NCBI GenBank assembly: GCA_020437395.1 | Contig: JAGQWJ010000009.1 | Span: forward strand, 1-64,000 | DNA from: Ignavibacteriota bacterium | Lineage (GTDB): Bacteria > Bacteroidota > Ignavibacteria > Kapaibacteriales > UBA2268 | Length of the DNA stretch: 64,000 bases | Direction of reading: 5' to 3' | Part shown: positions 17,494 through 29,190 of the stretch, piece by piece | Position numbering within the stretch: the stretch's first letter is position 1 | Layout: each line of letters starts with the position of its first letter | The notes under the pieces: generated by a model | What the model was told of the DNA's origin: nothing | What the model saw: only the letters and a program-made list of their open reading frames with translations | Database searches by the model: none | Position numbers and translations under genes: made by a program

Positions 17494-18096
17494 TTAAGTG
17501 TTGTTCCCGAATGGATTTCTTTTAGGTTCAAAAAAGGCGAATTGCATAAGGATAAATAAAATTGGGAATAAAAAATTTATACTGGATCCCGTCGTGTTTA
17601 TAAATAAATTAGAATAATAGATAAACTGCTTTACTGGAAAAGCAAATTCGGATAATTGAAAATCAGAATAATTATAGTTGTCGAATATTAATACAAGAAT
17701 TTTGATAGTTAAAAAATATAGACTACCAATCAATGAAATGAATAGAAATAAATATTTTGATTTGAAATAAAAAAATGTGCAAAAAGAGAGAGATAAAACT
17801 ATAGAAAATGGCAACACTAATTCTAAAAATATATCAATCTTCATATTTCTCTTAATATCACCACTTTCGGTACCAAAAAATATGCAATCAACATTTAGAT
17901 TGTTATTTTCTCCAATGAAGGCAACAGCTTCTTTTTCGAATATATATTTCTCATTAACGAATTTTTCTAAAAAAAAATTACTTGTGGTTTCAATATATGA
18001 GCTACTCAAATCGATAACTATCGGCTTTATTGATAATAGCAATATCAAACTAAAAATGAAAATTATTAATGATTTTACAATATCATTTTTTTGCAT
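17494..18096 (-). CDS. Membrane protein, candidate exosortase partner
   Basis: Not recognised as a named family. From the ATG at 18096 it has 200 residues: a membrane segment near the N-terminus (residues 9-25), an extracytoplasmic domain of about 70 residues containing the two cysteine-flanked segment NVDCIFFGTESGD, then four hydrophobic segments. The topology suggests an inner-membrane protein with one outer loop. A longer frame starts at 18162, but that would overlap the exosortase gene by 80 bases; the chosen start overlaps by 14. Position directly after the exosortase suggests that it serves the same sorting or glycan-linking step; this is inference from neighbourhood only. Confidence 0.6.
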   Translation of the reverse strand: MQKNDIVKSLIIFIFSLILLLSIKPIVIDLSSSYIETTSNFFLEKFVNEKYIFEKEAVAFIGENNNLNVDCIFFGTESGDIKRNMKIDIFLELVLPFSIVLSLSFCTFFYFKSKYLFLFISLIGSLYFLTIKILVLIFDNYNYSDFQLSEFAFPVKQFIYYSNLFINTTGSSINFLFPILFILMQFAFFEPKRNPFGNNT

Positions 18097-18568
18097 AATT
18101 AATCCAAAGTAAAAGCATAAAGACAGCAATAACGATAAGTATAATCTGCAAATAAACATCATGTAGTGCAGAAAATAGGGCTAAATCTTTACTTCCAACG
18201 AAAAAAAGTATTACAATTCTGAATAAATTCAGAATATATAAAGTTATAATTCCTAATGATATTCCAATTAGTTTCTTTTTTTTGGATGTTTCAAAAGCTA
18301 TAACTCCTGCAAGAAATAATATTATTGGTTCTGTTCCTTCACATCCAAAAGAAATTTGAACAGAAAAATCATTACCAACGATTACGTCACCAATCTGGCT
18401 CACATTTCCAGAAAACCAATTAATAATAATTGATGAAAAAAAAGCAGTACTTTTTAAGTACTGCTCAAGTAAAAAATTATTAGGTATAAGAATTATAAGG
18501 TAATACGAAACTATTACGGCAATATATTTTAACAAGAATAAATTATATTTCTTATTAAAATTATACAA
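18083..18568 (-). CDS. Exosortase/archaeosortase family protein
   Basis: A 161-residue polytopic membrane protein. It has the three catalytic positions of the exosortase family in order and in the right context: Cys76 in FGCEGTEPIILFLAG, Arg117 in LNLFRIVILF, and His136 in SALHDVYLQ. Family members cleave and transfer proteins that carry a C-terminal sorting signal, in Gram-negative bacteria with surface-polysaccharide loci. This is the minimal, single-domain form; the subfamily cannot be assigned, and no protein in the window has a clear PEP-CTERM-like tail. The gene lies between a receiver gene and a membrane protein with overlapping ends. Codons 35-45 form a perfect hairpin followed by eight T, like an intrinsic terminator. 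Confidence 0.85.
   Translation of the reverse strand: MYNFNKKYNLFLLKYIAVIVSYYLIILIPNNFLLEQYLKSTAFFSSIIINWFSGNVSQIGDVIVGNDFSVQISFGCEGTEPIILFLAGVIAFETSKKKKLIGISLGIITLYILNLFRIVILFFVGSKDLALFSALHDVYLQIILIVIAVFMLLLWINYAKK
18436..18465 (-). terminator. Terminator-like hairpin inside the exosortase gene
   Basis: On the minus strand, AGCAGTACTT pairs exactly with AAGTACTGCT (10 bp, three-base loop) and is followed at once by eight T. It lies within codons 35-45 of the exosortase reading frame. The form is that of a Rho-independent terminator in the direction of transcription. The stem has four G-C pairs, so it would be moderately stable. Whether it acts as an attenuator, a slippage site or nothing is not known. 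Confidence 0.5.
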
Positions 18569-18932
18569 AAAATTTCTCTTTTACCATATTCTTTAAGTTT
18601 TCGGGGAACCTGTCATTTTTTGGAAAAAATATCCATTTCTTTGATTCTATATGTTCCAAATCACTTTTTGATATATTCATAGCACTGCAAAAAATAACAG
18701 TTGCAGAGCGTTTATTATCGATTACGTTTTCTATCGTATTCATCAATGTTGAAGAGTAAGGAAGAAATAAATCACTGATAATCAAGTCATAATCTTTGTC
18801 TTTCATAAAACTGATAGCGTCATTCAATTTTAAAGCATTGTCAACAGCTACATCTTTATCAAGAGCATACTTGAGTGCCATCTTGATAGTATGAAAGTGT
18901 GCGTAATCGTCTTCTATAACTAATATTCTCAT
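18561..18932 (-). CDS. Single-domain response regulator (CheY-like receiver)
   Basis: From the ATG at 18932 the protein has 123 residues and consists only of a receiver domain. It opens MRILVIEDDY with the acidic pair (Glu7, Asp8/9), has the phospho-acceptor Asp54 in DLIISDLFLP, a Ser in place of the conserved Thr (FCSAM, Ser83) and the conserved Lys105 in FFPKN. There is no output domain, so it should act by protein contact or phosphotransfer. An upstream ATG at 18953 would overlap the head-GIN gene; the chosen start leaves a four-base gap. The stop overlaps the exosortase start by eight bases. No histidine kinase is adjacent. Confidence 0.85.
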   Translation of the reverse strand: MRILVIEDDYAHFHTIKMALKYALDKDVAVDNALKLNDAISFMKDKDYDLIISDLFLPYSSTLMNTIENVIDNKRSATVIFCSAMNISKSDLEHIESKKWIFFPKNDRFPENLKNMVKEKFFV

Positions 18933-18936
18933 AAAA

Positions 18937-19638
18937 TTATTTCGTTTGTTCAACTATACCATTTCCATCTTTCTCTATAGATAATTCTTTTGGTTTATTT
19001 TTATAGAGAATTTTTCCATTTCCATTCAGATTTGCTTTGAGCGAATTAACAGGATGAATCGTAATCACTCCATTTCCATTAAGGTCAACTTCTATATCAT
19101 CAGCAATTACTTTGCCAGCATCTAGACTGCCACTACCATCCATACTTATGCTTAAATCTTCAGCTTTTCCTTTTAGATTGACTGTACCTGAACCCTCGAA
19201 ATCAATTTCTATATCCTCGGCTTCTACAGCAAAATCAATTTCAGCTGAACCATTCACTTCTAATTCAAAGTCCTCTGTCTTGAATGTACCAGTAGAAGTT
19301 ACCTTAGTATTTTTATTTAGAGTAATTGAGTTTATTGTTTTCAAAGAAATGAAAATAGTTAAATTTTTCGGACACAAGTCTTGTCTCCCCGATATTTTCA
19401 GTTCACCATCATCATAATAAAATATAAGATTTTTTAGTATATCTTCATTTGTTTTAACTAAAATACTTTCTTCTTGACTTGGTGACAAGACTATATTCAT
19501 TGGAACATTTATTATCAATGATTTTACATCAGGTACATAGATTCTGTCTTCTATTATACTTCCAGTACCAACCATACAATCTGAATAACTGGATTGCGAA
19601 AGTAATAAAAATGTTATTAGTAAAATTATCTTTTTCAT
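18937..19638 (-). CDS. Head-GIN / DUF2807 domain protein, exported
   Basis: A 233-residue protein with a signal peptide (KKIILLITFLLLSQSSYS) and a repetitive right-handed beta-structure. From about residue 40 it follows the DUF2807 (putative auto-transporter adhesin, head GIN) pattern: VKTNEDILKNLIFYYDDGELKI, then runs of short alternating units with a Gly-Ser/Asn-Gly rhythm (NGSAEIDF, EGSGTVNL, DGSGSLDA, NGNGVITI, NGNGKI). These proteins are thought to lie at the cell surface or periplasm; no enzymatic role is known. It is the first gene of the group with the receiver and exosortase and may be made by the same promoter. The C-terminus is soluble, so it does not look like an exosortase substrate. 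Confidence 0.8.
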   Translation of the reverse strand: MKKIILLITFLLLSQSSYSDCMVGTGSIIEDRIYVPDVKSLIINVPMNIVLSPSQEESILVKTNEDILKNLIFYYDDGELKISGRQDLCPKNLTIFISLKTINSITLNKNTKVTSTGTFKTEDFELEVNGSAEIDFAVEAEDIEIDFEGSGTVNLKGKAEDLSISMDGSGSLDAGKVIADDIEVDLNGNGVITIHPVNSLKANLNGNGKILYKNKPKELSIEKDGNGIVEQTK

Positions 19639-19983
19639 ACGATACTCTTTATTTTATTAATTAAATTTAAACCTCAATTCAATTTTTTTAATGATAAAAA
19701 AAATCGAACAAATAGAAATAATACTATCACGTGTTTCGGAGAGATTTTTGTCAAAACTTATATTTACGAATTGTGATCAAACTAAGTCAAAGTATGTAAT
19801 CTTAATTTGTACAATATATGGACTTTCATCCTTATTAACCTTAGTACAACTAGTTTTACAGTTCATTCATAATATTTGATTTATCACTTAAATGTAAATA
19901 TATGAAATATTGGAATAAATTAATAACTTTCTCAATACTTAGCCGTAATTTAGTAAATAATTTTAACCACACAAACGTAAAAA
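19639..19983. other. 345-base divergent intergenic region
   Basis: Lies between the head-GIN gene (minus) and a TPR gene (plus) and should hold promoters for both. It is strongly AT-rich. Apart from a possible 62-codon frame at 19691-19879 I see no convincing structure, RNA gene or operator. Confidence 0.5.
19691..19879 (+). CDS. Possible small single-span membrane protein
   Basis: A 62-residue frame beginning MIKKIEQIEIILSRVSER and ending in a hydrophobic helix (about residues 35-58) with the last residues FIHNI, so it could be a tail-anchored peptide. The family is unknown and there is no ribosome-binding sequence. It lies in the intergenic region upstream of the TPR gene, in a composition equal to the background, so it may be a chance frame. 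Confidence 0.3.
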   Translation: MIKKIEQIEIILSRVSERFLSKLIFTNCDQTKSKYVILICTIYGLSSLLTLVQLVLQFIHNI

Positions 19984-22650: not shown

Positions 22651-22660
22651 ATGCAAATAA
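22550..22660 (+). CDS. Possible 36-residue single-span membrane peptide
   Basis: ATG-initiated frame with a strongly hydrophobic first half (MQLLILFVILICFIINYFL) and a basic tail (RKSIKNRKCK). Its stop lies ten bases inside the next gene, a spacing compatible with translational coupling. There is no family, and AT-rich DNA often gives such hydrophobic frames by chance. Confidence 0.22.
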   Translation: MQLLILFVILICFIINYFLIYVNVIIRKSIKNRKCK

Positions 22661-24378: not shown

Positions 24379-27300
24379 ATGAGAAGAATATACGCTATAT
24401 TCCTCATTTCTCTTTTCGCTGCAGCAACATTGACTGTAAGTGCACAAGTTACGGTTGAGCGTGTTGACGATGAAGTCAACGTTCAAACAGACAATGGTAC
24501 TTCGGAAGATATGTTGAGTAGCAAAAGCAATGAGATACAAAGGAAAAGTTTCTACCAGCTAGGAACAGCTCCTTTGCCGTTCGACCTCGTGAACAATGCT
24601 CACGACCGAATCGCAGTATCTACTGGATATTATGTAGTAGATTTTGCTGATGACGCTCCAGCTTACTGGAAACCTTCTGAAACTATTTATAGTTTAGATG
24701 AAAATCCAGAAAGATGGGTCTCTATACTTCCTGGTCCAAGAGTAGTAGAGAAAACTTATTGGGACAATAATAAAGAAGAGGGTCTAAGATTCTTTAGAAA
24801 CCCTGCTTACCCTGTTCAAAACAATAGGGACTTTTTTGAGCATAATGAATATTTCCAAGATACTACTGACAACGCATTTGCTGGCCCAATGCCATTAAAA
24901 TTAGTTGGTGGTTTCTACTTCAATGGTATTCGTTATGACTCATTCTATGTGACTACTAATGGTTTGATTGCCCTAACTAATAGAAGATACTTCTATGATG
25001 AATTTGGAAATAAATATATTCCATCTGGTGAGCAATCAGCTTACGACCCTAATTCAATGGATTATTTCGTTGGCTATATTGGTGGTGATAATAGAAATAG
25101 ATCAGGTAACGGTTTAAGTGACAATGTAACTGATGATTTTGGTTATAAATGGTCAATTATAGGTGGCAATGAAGCTGATCCTAATGGTGGTATTAGAGGT
25201 GACCAAGCGAATAGAGGTAACTTATCGAATCCACACGGAATGAATGACATTACATCTGCTTCTTACAAGCCAGCTTTAATTGGATTTATGTATGGTGATT
25301 ATGAGTTATCTCAATTCGCACGTACTCAAAATAAAGTTGATAATCATGGTAGAGTTCACTATTTCAGAACAATTGCTAATGATAAACTTGTAATTTACTA
25401 CGAGAATTTAGCTGTACCAGCTAGTACAAAGAGTACATTAGGATGGAATATAACTTGGAACGCATCTGACTCAAGACCAAGTGACGACGGCTATACTGCA
25501 GTTTCTGGTCAAACTATATTAAACAGAAACGATAGTAGTATCACAATCATCTATGAAAGATTTATGGGTGGAGTAACTGCTGGTAGAACTGTTATCCAAG
25601 CAAAAGATATTTTCAGAGGTAACTCTGCTGTTGGTGTTTATGGTTTTGGAAGACATGCAAACTACAACGTAACTGGTGGTCCAGACCAAAATAGTTCTGA
25701 CTTCCCTTGGGTAAGAGAATACGAGCAATATACTCACTATTTCTCTTATGTCAGAAACGCTGCTAGTTACCCACAAACATTTACTTCTTTGAAGTTCAAA
25801 CAACACCAAAATACTTTGAGAGTTGTTGATATTCAATACAGAGTTCGTAAGCAAGATCCAAATGCTTCTTTAGCGTTCTCTGAGAAAGTAAATTCAAGAG
25901 ATGTGAACAATTATGAATTATTAGCTGGTAATGATCACTTAGGTGCAATTCAACCAGTTGCTATTATTCAAAACGTATCTAATGACATACAAGCTCCAAC
26001 TGGTGTAAACTTCGTTCCTCAAGATTTGAATTTCTATGCTCGTTTCAGAGTTATGAACAAAGCTACTGGAAGATTAGTTTATAACAGAGCTGTACCAGTT
26101 GATAACAAATGTTTATCAACTCCAGATGATAATTTAGCTAATTGTGAAGGTAATCCTGACGTAAGAGTTAGATTAGTTACAGTAACAATAGACAAAGATG
26201 GTAACTACCAAGCTGAAGTAGCTAACTATCCAGGAACAAACCCTTGGAATGGTAAAACTAGAACAGGTATCCCACCTTATGGTTATGTAGAAGTTAAATT
26301 CCCTCCTTTCGAGCCAAATGAATTTGCAAGAGATGAGAATAATAAACTTTACCAAATTGGTAGAATGGCAGCTTTCGTAGTTGCAGATGCGACTAACCCT
26401 AATACAAATAAGAAATTAGGTGATGCTTGGCCATTTGATGATACTGCAGGCGTTGATCTACACGTAATGAGATTACACACTTTCTTTAGTGATGATGCAA
26501 GAGAATATCACATTATCGATGGTGTTCCGATTCCTTCAGTACAAAAATGGGTAAGTATTGATGCTGAGGTTGTAAGTGGTGATGTACTTTCTAGACACCC
26601 ACTTCCACCAAGAGGTAGATTTACTGCTGATAACAATGAGAATTTCTTCTTAAGTTCTCCAGTAATCAAAATGAACAGAGTAACTACAGGTGGTCAAGAT
26701 AATACACCTGGTGACGAATTGAGATCACATCCAATCGACATGAGAGGTAGATTTGGTTCTGTTATCTCATTATCAGTACAAAGAACTTTAGACAAAGAAT
26801 TCTGGGATAGAGGTTATGGAGACAACTTATTAGTTGGACCAGAGCCAAGAGCAGTATTAAACAGAGATCCTTTCACTGTATTCAGTACTGGCGTTGCTGT
26901 ATCTTCTAATCCAGATATGTTAGCTTTAGAAATTATGCAACCATCAGACAATGGAGTTGCTAACATTACTAACGTAAAAGACAACAGATGGAGAAATCAC
27001 CCTCGTAGAGGAGGCGAAGATGCTGAAACTAAAGTTCCTGCATTAGGAATCTATGGTGCTGGTGGATATTTAACTGGTTTCTTGGAAACCGATAGAGATT
27101 CATCTTTAGCATTGCCAAATGCTGGTACTAGAGAAGAGAATTCTTTAAGAGCTGACATTTATGATGATGGATTTGATTTCATTTACAAAAAGTATTTTGT
27201 TCCAATTCCTGATACATTTATCAGACATCAAAATGATGGTGCAAAACATTTCAGATTTAGATTGAAGATGTTTGCATCTAACGATAAGAAATGTCCTCAA

Positions 27301-29190
27301 TGTACAAATGATGACGATGATAACTTCTTGATTGACAATATAAGTGTATTGTTCAAATCTAAGGAAACAACTGATATTGAAGTAAGTGCTGTATCTATAA
27401 GCTGGCCTTATACTGAAGCACCTGCAACTCAAGCTTCTAAAATTCCGATTGAGGTTACAGCTACTAACAATACTGCAAACAACGCTCCTTTCTACCATAT
27501 CAAAGTTAAGATATTTAGAGGAACGAACGTAAATGATACAAATAACTTAGTTTATTGTAATACAAGAACAGTTACTTATCACGATCCTAACAATGAAATT
27601 GTTAAAGCATTCCCTGACTTCGAAGCTCGTAAATTTGGCGAAGGTGAGTATAGAGCTCAAGCAATCATAGTTGTTCCGGGTGGTGACTTAGAAGAACTTA
27701 ACGACACAACTTACACAGACTTTACAATTAAATTTGGTTCTACATTTGCTTATGATCCAGTAGATAGTCCTAAGAACGATATCGGTGGTGGTGCATTCCC
27801 TGTTGGTAGAGGTCTGAACATCGAAGCTTATGCTTATGGTGGTAGAGGTAATGCTAACAATCAATCTGGTGGATATGATGAACTTCAATTTGGTTCAGGT
27901 TACATAGGTGGTAGTATTTCTGGTCAATTGGCTATGAAATTTGAACTATTACAAGCGGATACTGTTTATGGTTACGATGCACTATTCGGAACTATTAACC
28001 AATCTCCTGACCATATTGCGTTATCAATCTACAAAGGTCAAGCAGACTCTGATATCCCTTCTGAAGAAATTGCTTCTTCTAGATTAGATAGACAAAGAGG
28101 TAGAGATGACAGAACTGACAAATTGGTTTATGGTGAGTATGTAAGATACTTATTGAAAAAAGGTATTGTACTTCCGAAAGGTACTTACTGGATAGCAATT
28201 GCTCAATTGGGTGAAACTGGTCTAGAGTTAGGTGGTTCAAAACAAAGAACTGGTCTAAGAACTATGTCAGTTTACGTTCCGCCTCCAGTAAACTTCACGA
28301 GTGCAGTCGGTGGTTCAGGTGTATCTCTTAACATTCATAAAGAATTCAGAAAGAGAGCTGTTAGTGGAAATCTATTAAACAACAGTTACTTTGCATTCGA
28401 GAATACAAGAGGATCTGGACAATGGGTACCATTTACTCCAAGTATTGGTAACGTAGGTTATGCTCATTTACACCACTTTGGTTGGGTTCCTGCTGAAGGT
28501 ACTACTTTAACATTAACTAACGGTACATGGATTCCATTGATTAGACCATTCTTAGGTGCTAAAGCATCTGATAATGTTCAAAGAGTTGATGATTGTGATG
28601 TTCCTATTAACCTCGTTAGCTTCGAAGGTGAACAAAGAAGTTCTGCTATAGATCTTTCTTGGACAACTGCTACTGAAGAAAATAACAAAGGTTTCTACAT
28701 AGAGAAAAGATCAAAAGTTAACAATGAGTATAATGAATGGGAGCAAATCACATTCGTTAATGGTAACGGTAATACTAAAACTACTAGCTATTATTCTTAC
28801 TCAGATAAGAACGTAAAAGCTGGTACTACTTATCAATATAAATTAAGACAAGTTGATTTTGATGGAACTCAGAACTGTCACGAAACTGATATCGTAACTG
28901 TTCAGTTCGGCAATCCTAATTTAGTAATTAGTAACTGGCCGAATCCTGTTAAAGAATCAACTAAGATCGAATACACTACTAACGAAAACGGTAATGTTAA
29001 GATTGAGGTTCTTGATTTATTAGGTAATGTTGTTAAAACATTATTGAATGATGAGGTAAATGCTGGTACTTACGAATTGAAGTATGACGCAACTGACGCT
29101 GTAGGAAACAGATTAACTTCTGGTACTTACATCTATAGAATTACTGCTAATGGTCAAACTCAATCTGCTAAGATGAGTATTGTTCAATAG
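24379..29190 (+). CDS. Giant secreted protein with T9SS type A sorting domain
   Basis: A 1603-residue exported protein. It has a signal peptide (MRRIYAIFLISLFAAATLTVSAQ), a long beta-rich body with no named domain I recognise, a fibronectin-like module near 1410-1510 (LSWTTATEENNKGFYIEKRS, YQYKLRQVDFDGTQNC) and a C-terminal sorting domain at about 1513-1603 (ISNWPNPVKESTKIEY, VLDLLGNVVKTL, LTSGTYIYRITANGQ). The tail is removed by the T9SS and the protein is attached to or released at the surface. Codons differ from the rest of the window (more GGT, GCT, AAC, TTC), and with the strong Shine-Dalgarno and terminator this indicates high expression. It may be a major surface or S-layer-like protein; this is inference. 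Confidence 0.9.
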   Translation: MRRIYAIFLISLFAAATLTVSAQVTVERVDDEVNVQTDNGTSEDMLSSKSNEIQRKSFYQLGTAPLPFDLVNNAHDRIAVSTGYYVVDFADDAPAYWKPSETIYSLDENPERWVSILPGPRVVEKTYWDNNKEEGLRFFRNPAYPVQNNRDFFEHNEYFQDTTDNAFAGPMPLKLVGGFYFNGIRYDSFYVTTNGLIALTNRRYFYDEFGNKYIPSGEQSAYDPNSMDYFVGYIGGDNRNRSGNGLSDNVTDDFGYKWSIIGGNEADPNGGIRGDQANRGNLSNPHGMNDITSASYKPALIGFMYGDYELSQFARTQNKVDNHGRVHYFRTIANDKLVIYYENLAVPASTKSTLGWNITWNASDSRPSDDGYTAVSGQTILNRNDSSITIIYERFMGGVTAGRTVIQAKDIFRGNSAVGVYGFGRHANYNVTGGPDQNSSDFPWVREYEQYTHYFSYVRNAASYPQTFTSLKFKQHQNTLRVVDIQYRVRKQDPNASLAFSEKVNSRDVNNYELLAGNDHLGAIQPVAIIQNVSNDIQAPTGVNFVPQDLNFYARFRVMNKATGRLVYNRAVPVDNKCLSTPDDNLANCEGNPDVRVRLVTVTIDKDGNYQAEVANYPGTNPWNGKTRTGIPPYGYVEVKFPPFEPNEFARDENNKLYQIGRMAAFVVADATNPNTNKKLGDAWPFDDTAGVDLHVMRLHTFFSDDAREYHIIDGVPIPSVQKWVSIDAEVVSGDVLSRHPLPPRGRFTADNNENFFLSSPVIKMNRVTTGGQDNTPGDELRSHPIDMRGRFGSVISLSVQRTLDKEFWDRGYGDNLLVGPEPRAVLNRDPFTVFSTGVAVSSNPDMLALEIMQPSDNGVANITNVKDNRWRNHPRRGGEDAETKVPALGIYGAGGYLTGFLETDRDSSLALPNAGTREENSLRADIYDDGFDFIYKKYFVPIPDTFIRHQNDGAKHFRFRLKMFASNDKKCPQCTNDDDDNFLIDNISVLFKSKETTDIEVSAVSISWPYTEAPATQASKIPIEVTATNNTANNAPFYHIKVKIFRGTNVNDTNNLVYCNTRTVTYHDPNNEIVKAFPDFEARKFGEGEYRAQAIIVVPGGDLEELNDTTYTDFTIKFGSTFAYDPVDSPKNDIGGGAFPVGRGLNIEAYAYGGRGNANNQSGGYDELQFGSGYIGGSISGQLAMKFELLQADTVYGYDALFGTINQSPDHIALSIYKGQADSDIPSEEIASSRLDRQRGRDDRTDKLVYGEYVRYLLKKGIVLPKGTYWIAIAQLGETGLELGGSKQRTGLRTMSVYVPPPVNFTSAVGGSGVSLNIHKEFRKRAVSGNLLNNSYFAFENTRGSGQWVPFTPSIGNVGYAHLHHFGWVPAEGTTLTLTNGTWIPLIRPFLGAKASDNVQRVDDCDVPINLVSFEGEQRSSAIDLSWTTATEENNKGFYIEKRSKVNNEYNEWEQITFVNGNGNTKTTSYYSYSDKNVKAGTTYQYKLRQVDFDGTQNCHETDIVTVQFGNPNLVISNWPNPVKESTKIEYTTNENGNVKIEVLDLLGNVVKTLLNDEVNAGTYELKYDATDAVGNRLTSGTYIYRITANGQTQSAKMSIVQ

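Follow-up and report, generated by a model that had tools for sequence, protein, structure and literature searches.

A two-gene XrtH-like exosortase module in an Ignavibacteriota genome very likely sorts a single IPTL-CTERM protein

We analyzed an exosortase locus in a 64,000-nucleotide stretch of Ignavibacteriota DNA (hereafter, the window). Our main finding is that the exosortase (XRT) and the membrane protein encoded directly after it (MEM) are very likely an XrtH-like sortase and its partner, sorting the only IPTL-CTERM protein of this genome. The original prediction had singled out the locus as the best candidate in the window for something not yet described. This is mostly wrong because the enzyme lies closest to exosortase H, a family whose signal, IPTL-CTERM, is known, even though its score is just below the family cut-off. 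The locus is better viewed as a divergent bacterial form of the exosortase H/IPTL-CTERM system, which is already known.

The group occupies positions 17494-19638 and consists of four genes, all on the minus strand. In order, these encode an exported DUF2807 (head-GIN) protein of 233 aa (18937..19638), which comes first, a stand-alone CheY-like receiver of 123 aa (18561..18932), the 161-aa XrtH-like exosortase (18083..18568), and MEM, an exosortase-associated membrane protein of 200 aa (17494..18096). All four tightly packed genes of the original prediction are thus present, and the domain names it gave them were borne out by family searches: the head-GIN protein matches PF10988 (DUF2807) with 135.4 bits (cut-off 24.2) and the receiver matches PF00072 (Response_reg) with 30.2 bits (cut-off 30.2). 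Comparison with orthologs led us to correct two gene starts, placing that of the receiver at ATG 18932 (123 aa) rather than TTG 18953 and that of MEM at ATG 18096 (200 aa) rather than 18162. The exosortase starts with a TTG codon common to all three sister genomes of the genus. In the window, the head-GIN and receiver genes are separated by 4 nt, the receiver and XRT genes overlap by 8 nt, and the XRT and MEM genes overlap by 14 nt; in the three sister genomes, a 6-nt gap is followed by the same overlaps of 8 and 14 nt. This nearly identical spacing strongly suggests that the four genes form a single transcript. The source genome is 2.94 Mb, with a completeness of 100% and a contamination of 1%. 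Just upstream of the head-GIN gene, the three sisters have a gene for a 154-aa exported protein (L024:7514-7978, L025:9254-9718, and L026:7914-8378), which is missing in the window (19640-19983).

Family scores above the curated cut-offs assign the window enzyme to the exosortase/archaeosortase superfamily, with 55.1 bits for TIGR04178 (exo_archaeo; cut-off 23) and 29.0 bits for PF09721 (Exosortase_EpsH; cut-off 25.7). Its predicted catalytic residues Cys76, Arg117, and His136 are found exactly where they had been placed and are invariant in an alignment of 10 sequences. The best family is TIGR04177 (exosort_XrtH), with 79.3 bits, 7 bits under the curated cut-off of 86. This model is matched by all 10 relatives tested, with a best E-value of 1.2e-23, and the relatives' best scores by E-value are also below the cut-off. 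We therefore call the enzyme XrtH-like rather than XrtH, and its mode of action is very probably that of XrtH. The 12 NCBIfam matches of the window exosortase do not include XrtA (TIGR03109). A PEP-CTERM/XrtA (EpsH) system with an EPS locus was consequently rejected, given also that the tail found in the genome is IPTL rather than PEP and that the near neighbors are obg, radA, and an ftsY-like gene. In the exosortase tree suggested by the original prediction, the window's family is a separate Kapabacterial clade: a group of 18 rows (96/95), almost all of them from this family, is set off from the enzymes of Bacteroidota and proteobacteria. A sequence search for a solved structure of an exosortase relative found none, and a literature search found no open paper linking exosortases with Kapabacteria. 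An exosortase locus on a contig labelled Desulfobulbaceae (L163, JAGXRP010000063.1) is, together with its neighbors, nearly the same as locus L034 in genome G027, from which we conclude that the contig has probably been misbinned in that MAG or else reflects a recent transfer.

We compared gene order in 60 relatives, as the original prediction had proposed; close relatives with named records are MAGs of Ignavibacteriae, Ignavibacteriota, and "Candidatus Kapaibacterium". Conservation of the four-gene order held within the genus, where order and overlaps are kept in all four genomes, but not beyond it, where the order was found in none of the relatives and only XRT and MEM stay paired. This pair is stable in the 19 relative loci examined, where the MEM gene is directly downstream of the exosortase gene and mostly overlaps it. 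Judged by gene order, the locus has a sorting module of two genes, XRT plus MEM, as its core, and the receiver and head-GIN genes are additions at the genus level, inside a block that was already syntenic. Indeed, synteny among the four genomes extends across a whole block of 12 genes, which runs from ftsY up to the gene at 22651 (ftsY-like, a glycosyltransferase-like gene, radA, obg ... TPR, GT2), so that the shared order of the four genes argues only weakly that receiver and sortase are functionally linked.

MEM has four predicted transmembrane helices, the first transmembrane region being followed by a three-strand segment outside the cytoplasm. Its AlphaFold2 model (pLDDT 82.9) shows the transmembrane helices and a short extracytoplasmic beta segment, and gave no match in the PDB with E<=0.001. 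Homologs are detectable by blastp in 9 loci, and residues N48, E92, K132, D139, N140, and G170 are invariant. The original prediction had left this protein unnamed, and so it stays for the window copy, which matches nothing in Pfam or NCBIfam, XrtH_assoc (NF041730) included. Like XrtH_assoc, MEM follows the exosortase and has the same size and multiple transmembrane helices, and its homolog in genome G035 does match NF041730 weakly (E=1.6e-4 to 6e-4, 20.6 bits against a cut-off of 35). In hhalign comparisons of MEM with three near-identical gammaproteobacterial copies of XrtH_assoc, only one helix was matched, with a probability of 1%, which makes the comparison uninformative. At best, therefore, MEM would be a very distant XrtH_assoc. 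As a guess, it might present the tail or the acceptor.

The claim that the exosortase has no visible substrate holds locally, with no tail-bearing gene beside it in the window, but fails genome-wide. A profile search of the genome for C-terminal sorting tails identified exactly one IPTL-CTERM protein, of 228 aa, on another contig (genome G000, contig C114), scoring above both curated cut-offs: 21.0-23.6 bits for TIGR04174 (cut-off 20.5) and 26.1-28.8 bits for PF18203 (cut-off 20.8). With a tail profile that included the genus' own tails, this protein was found with E=7.6e-13, the next match having E>0.5. It is also matched, under the cut-off, by NF033207 ("midcut-by-XrtH"). The protein consists of an N-terminal signal sequence, an FN3-like stretch (a weak Pfam hint), and the tail TTPIPTLSEWALILLGITIPVIVYFKMKA, in which IPTLSEW is followed by a hydrophobic helix and a short lysine-containing end; its structure prediction has a mean pLDDT of 50.5. 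In each of the sister genomes, a single ortholog (82-96% identity) keeps the signal peptide, tail helix, and basic end, and the tail profile detected no second IPTL-CTERM candidate in these genomes. Further tailed proteins considered in the window's genome, on C49 (PF18203, E 0.81) and on C67 and C60 (tail profile, E 0.52 and 1.39), were rejected as chance-level matches.

Within the genus, the exosortase and its only candidate substrate are unlinked. At locus L027 in genome G006, which has the nearest enzyme outside the genus, three genes whose products end in IPTLGEWGMMAFVGLMA...RKRIV, of the IPTL-CTERM type, lie directly upstream of XRT-MEM, and gammaproteobacterial loci share the order IPTL-CTERM substrate, XrtH, membrane partner. 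Among the 60 relatives, 15 have both tail and exosortase, 2 have the enzyme only, none has the tail only, and 43 have neither (Fisher P of 2.6e-12 by genome and 2e-9 by genus). The two enzyme-only genomes, G019 and G030, both have another tail type (NIPIWD, see below). Phylogenetic-profile reasoning of this kind led to the first recognition of exosortase systems (PMC1569441). The window also encodes a protein with a T9SS sorting signal (24379-29190; TIGR04183, 37 bits, cut-off 23), in line with the statement that this organism has T9SS sorting as well. With a single IPTL-CTERM protein in the genome and tails that co-occur strictly with the exosortase, the idea of a dedicated sorting system separate from T9SS, with its substrate elsewhere, is supported.

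The surroundings of the tailed gene suggest where its product might act. The gene 10 bp downstream on C114 encodes an exported product whose N-terminus resembles the N-terminal domain of mosaic adhesive trimer (MAT) proteins. Since its score against NF053851 (31.0 bits, E 1.9e-7) is below the cut-off of 60, we label it MAT_N-like only. The 15 genomes with tails contain 38 IPTL-CTERM genes, and for 11 of these a MAT_N-like gene lies no more than 2 kb away on the same strand, compared with 0.066 expected under uniform random placement, a figure that would be higher if surface-protein genes cluster in general. When the window's genus is counted once, 8 cases in five genera remain. The gaps are often 10-40 bp, and such tight pairing was seen for IPTL-CTERM and also NIPIWD genes (L094:7825-9546, L104, L107, L109, L111, and L106). 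All MAT_N matches are under the curated cut-off, and MAT_N genes occur in exosortase-free genomes too. The MAT proteins of Bdellovibrio are trimeric surface fibers and have in common a beta-rich domain that directly follows the signal peptide (PMC10769870).

In the general exosortase scheme, proteins with a C-terminal motif, helix, and basic end are exported by Sec and processed at the membrane (PMC12188702). Our data show the family and residues of the enzyme, its linkage with MEM, a tailed protein that is the only one in the genome and whose tail type strictly co-occurs with the enzyme, and MAT_N-like genes linked to tailed ones; from these we infer the following route. The C114 protein would leave via Sec using its N-terminal signal peptide, and its tail would halt in the inner membrane. 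Together with MEM, the exosortase would then cleave at or near IPTLxEW through Cys76/Arg117/His136, and the cleaved protein would be either released or transferred to an acceptor in the envelope. The mature protein would act at the cell surface, probably together with the adhesive-fiber-like MAT_N-type protein encoded next to it.

The original prediction further suggested that sorting might be controlled by a signal, which would mean that the receiver, once phosphorylated, turns sorting on or off by binding to MEM or to the exosortase. The receiver's phosphorylation residues are intact (acceptor Asp54, plus Asp8, Asp9, Ser83, and Lys105), and its gene overlaps that of the exosortase by exactly 8 nt in 4/4 genomes. 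However, its orthologs (92-96% identity) are restricted to the genus, with no close matches elsewhere among the 60 relatives, although XRT-MEM is retained there, and the synteny of the entire block means that gene order adds little. The receiver is also the most conserved protein of the 12-gene block, above RadA or FtsY. Within the genus its identity compares with 92% for RadA, 81-82% for Obg, 70-75% for XRT, and 54-58% for MEM, a pattern more in keeping with a conserved partner elsewhere than with co-evolution with XRT and MEM. In addition, its nearest paralog is encoded next to a MeaB-like gene, among housekeeping genes of an unrelated cluster. This second stand-alone receiver (L143:6798-7175, L144:6216-6593, and L145:6909-7286), conserved in the genus upstream of the MeaB-like GTPase gene, is 34% identical to the window receiver in the window's own genome and 32-35% in the sisters, which indicates that lone receivers encoded among housekeeping genes form a small family in the genus. 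Judging from spacing, the receiver would share an operon with the sortase, but its role in sorting is not supported, and we consider signal control of the sortase unlikely. A PorX-like T9SS regulator was rejected as an identity for the receiver, since the PorX model matched only with E 0.0048, as for any receiver. More speculative still is a one-enzyme, one-cargo pathway in which the small FN3-like surface protein anchors or assembles a trimeric MAT-type fiber and the operon is switched by its own receiver, a scheme to which we assign a low probability.

Two further readings are the least probable. The first is that the module is a decaying remnant, whereby the genus inherited XRT-MEM, kept one substrate, and is losing the function. 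This would account for its single IPTL-CTERM protein, where relatives have up to seven, and for the fast evolution of MEM. Against it, the catalytic residues, partner gene, overlaps, and tail are intact in four species, and differences between XRT genes concentrate at third codon positions, pointing to selection acting on the protein; decay is thus highly improbable. We give equally little credence to the idea that the exosortase has the head-GIN protein as its true substrate or acceptor, which would build on the export of this protein, as judged by its N-terminal sequence, and on its place in the same operon in the genus. Its C-terminus (ending ...NKPKELSIEKDGNGIVEQTK) has no hydrophobic segment and no basic end, its homologs, present in 29 of the 60 relatives including many that lack an exosortase, lie next to the exosortase gene only in the window's genus, and a protein with the cognate tail is found elsewhere in the genome.

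The preferred reading, an XrtH-like sortase with one IPTL-CTERM cargo, can be compared with other known systems. With exosortase H/IPTL-CTERM (TIGR04177, TIGR04174, and PF18203), the system shares an enzyme of ~160 aa with a Cys/Arg/His triad and TIGR04177 as top family, the gene of a membrane partner immediately after it, and IPTLxEW tails that serve as the cognate signal and strictly co-occur with the enzyme. It differs in that the enzyme is below the XrtH cut-off and in its own Kapabacterial clade, the partner is barely related to XrtH_assoc, and the genus has one, unlinked substrate and an operon that holds receiver and DUF2807 genes. XrtF and its partner in Flavobacterium johnsoniae (Fjoh_1448/Fjoh_1449) are likewise a two-gene combination in a T9SS-bearing host, with substrates that are not adjacent, although the window enzyme reaches only 40.5 bits against the XrtF model (cut-off 90), compared with 79.3 for XrtH. 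The substrates of XrtF are unknown (PMC12188702). XrtF and its neighbor gene affect surface colonization, and mutants are reported to affect biofilm formation (PMC10936215), which by analogy supports a possible surface role for the window module. Finally, the IPTL-CTERM S-layer protein of Methylomirabilis lanthanidiphila offers a parallel to the C114 protein, as a lone secreted surface protein that begins with a signal peptide and ends with an IPTL-CTERM domain (PMC8671808). That protein is a proven S-layer protein from another phylum (PMC8671808), whereas nothing found here points to an S-layer.

The relatives also revealed a candidate for a new tail class with its own exosortase paralogs, NIPIWD-CTERM. 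Proteins ending in (T/S)xxNIP(I/V)WDxW, a helix, and basic residues are present in genomes G006 (~11 proteins), G030 (two), and G019 (one), encoded at L106:9624-10430, L106:10912-12792, and L147:9949-12834 and also at L190, L192, L193, and L186. In the proteins tested, the tail follows a choice-of-anchor U domain, and NCBIfam sorting-tail models gave no match in either of the two tested. These three genomes are exactly those with the divergent exosortases L032, L040, and L039, which fall in a tree group of five rows including L031 and L042 that has only moderate support (92.5/70). Both types of exosortase and both types of tail are present in G006, and at L040 a NIPIWD-tailed gene adjoins the exosortase pair. 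In G012, a GloVer-repeat protein (L042:8767-10101) ending in FPFYQPWLMWILVLTLIIPSLYFLRNIS, possibly a further tail class, is encoded beside a second, very divergent exosortase pair (exosortase at L042:10821-11456).

Taken together, these findings turn an apparently orphan exosortase into a set of enzyme, partner, and single cargo, which is about the simplest case for testing sortase specificity and cargo fate. In relatives with several IPTL-CTERM genes, the tight linkage of these to genes for a MAT-like N-terminal domain offers a concrete hypothesis for the use of XrtH-type sorting in this group, and the candidate second exosortase/tail pair, NIPIWD-CTERM, makes a testable prediction on how sorting specificity may diverge after duplication.
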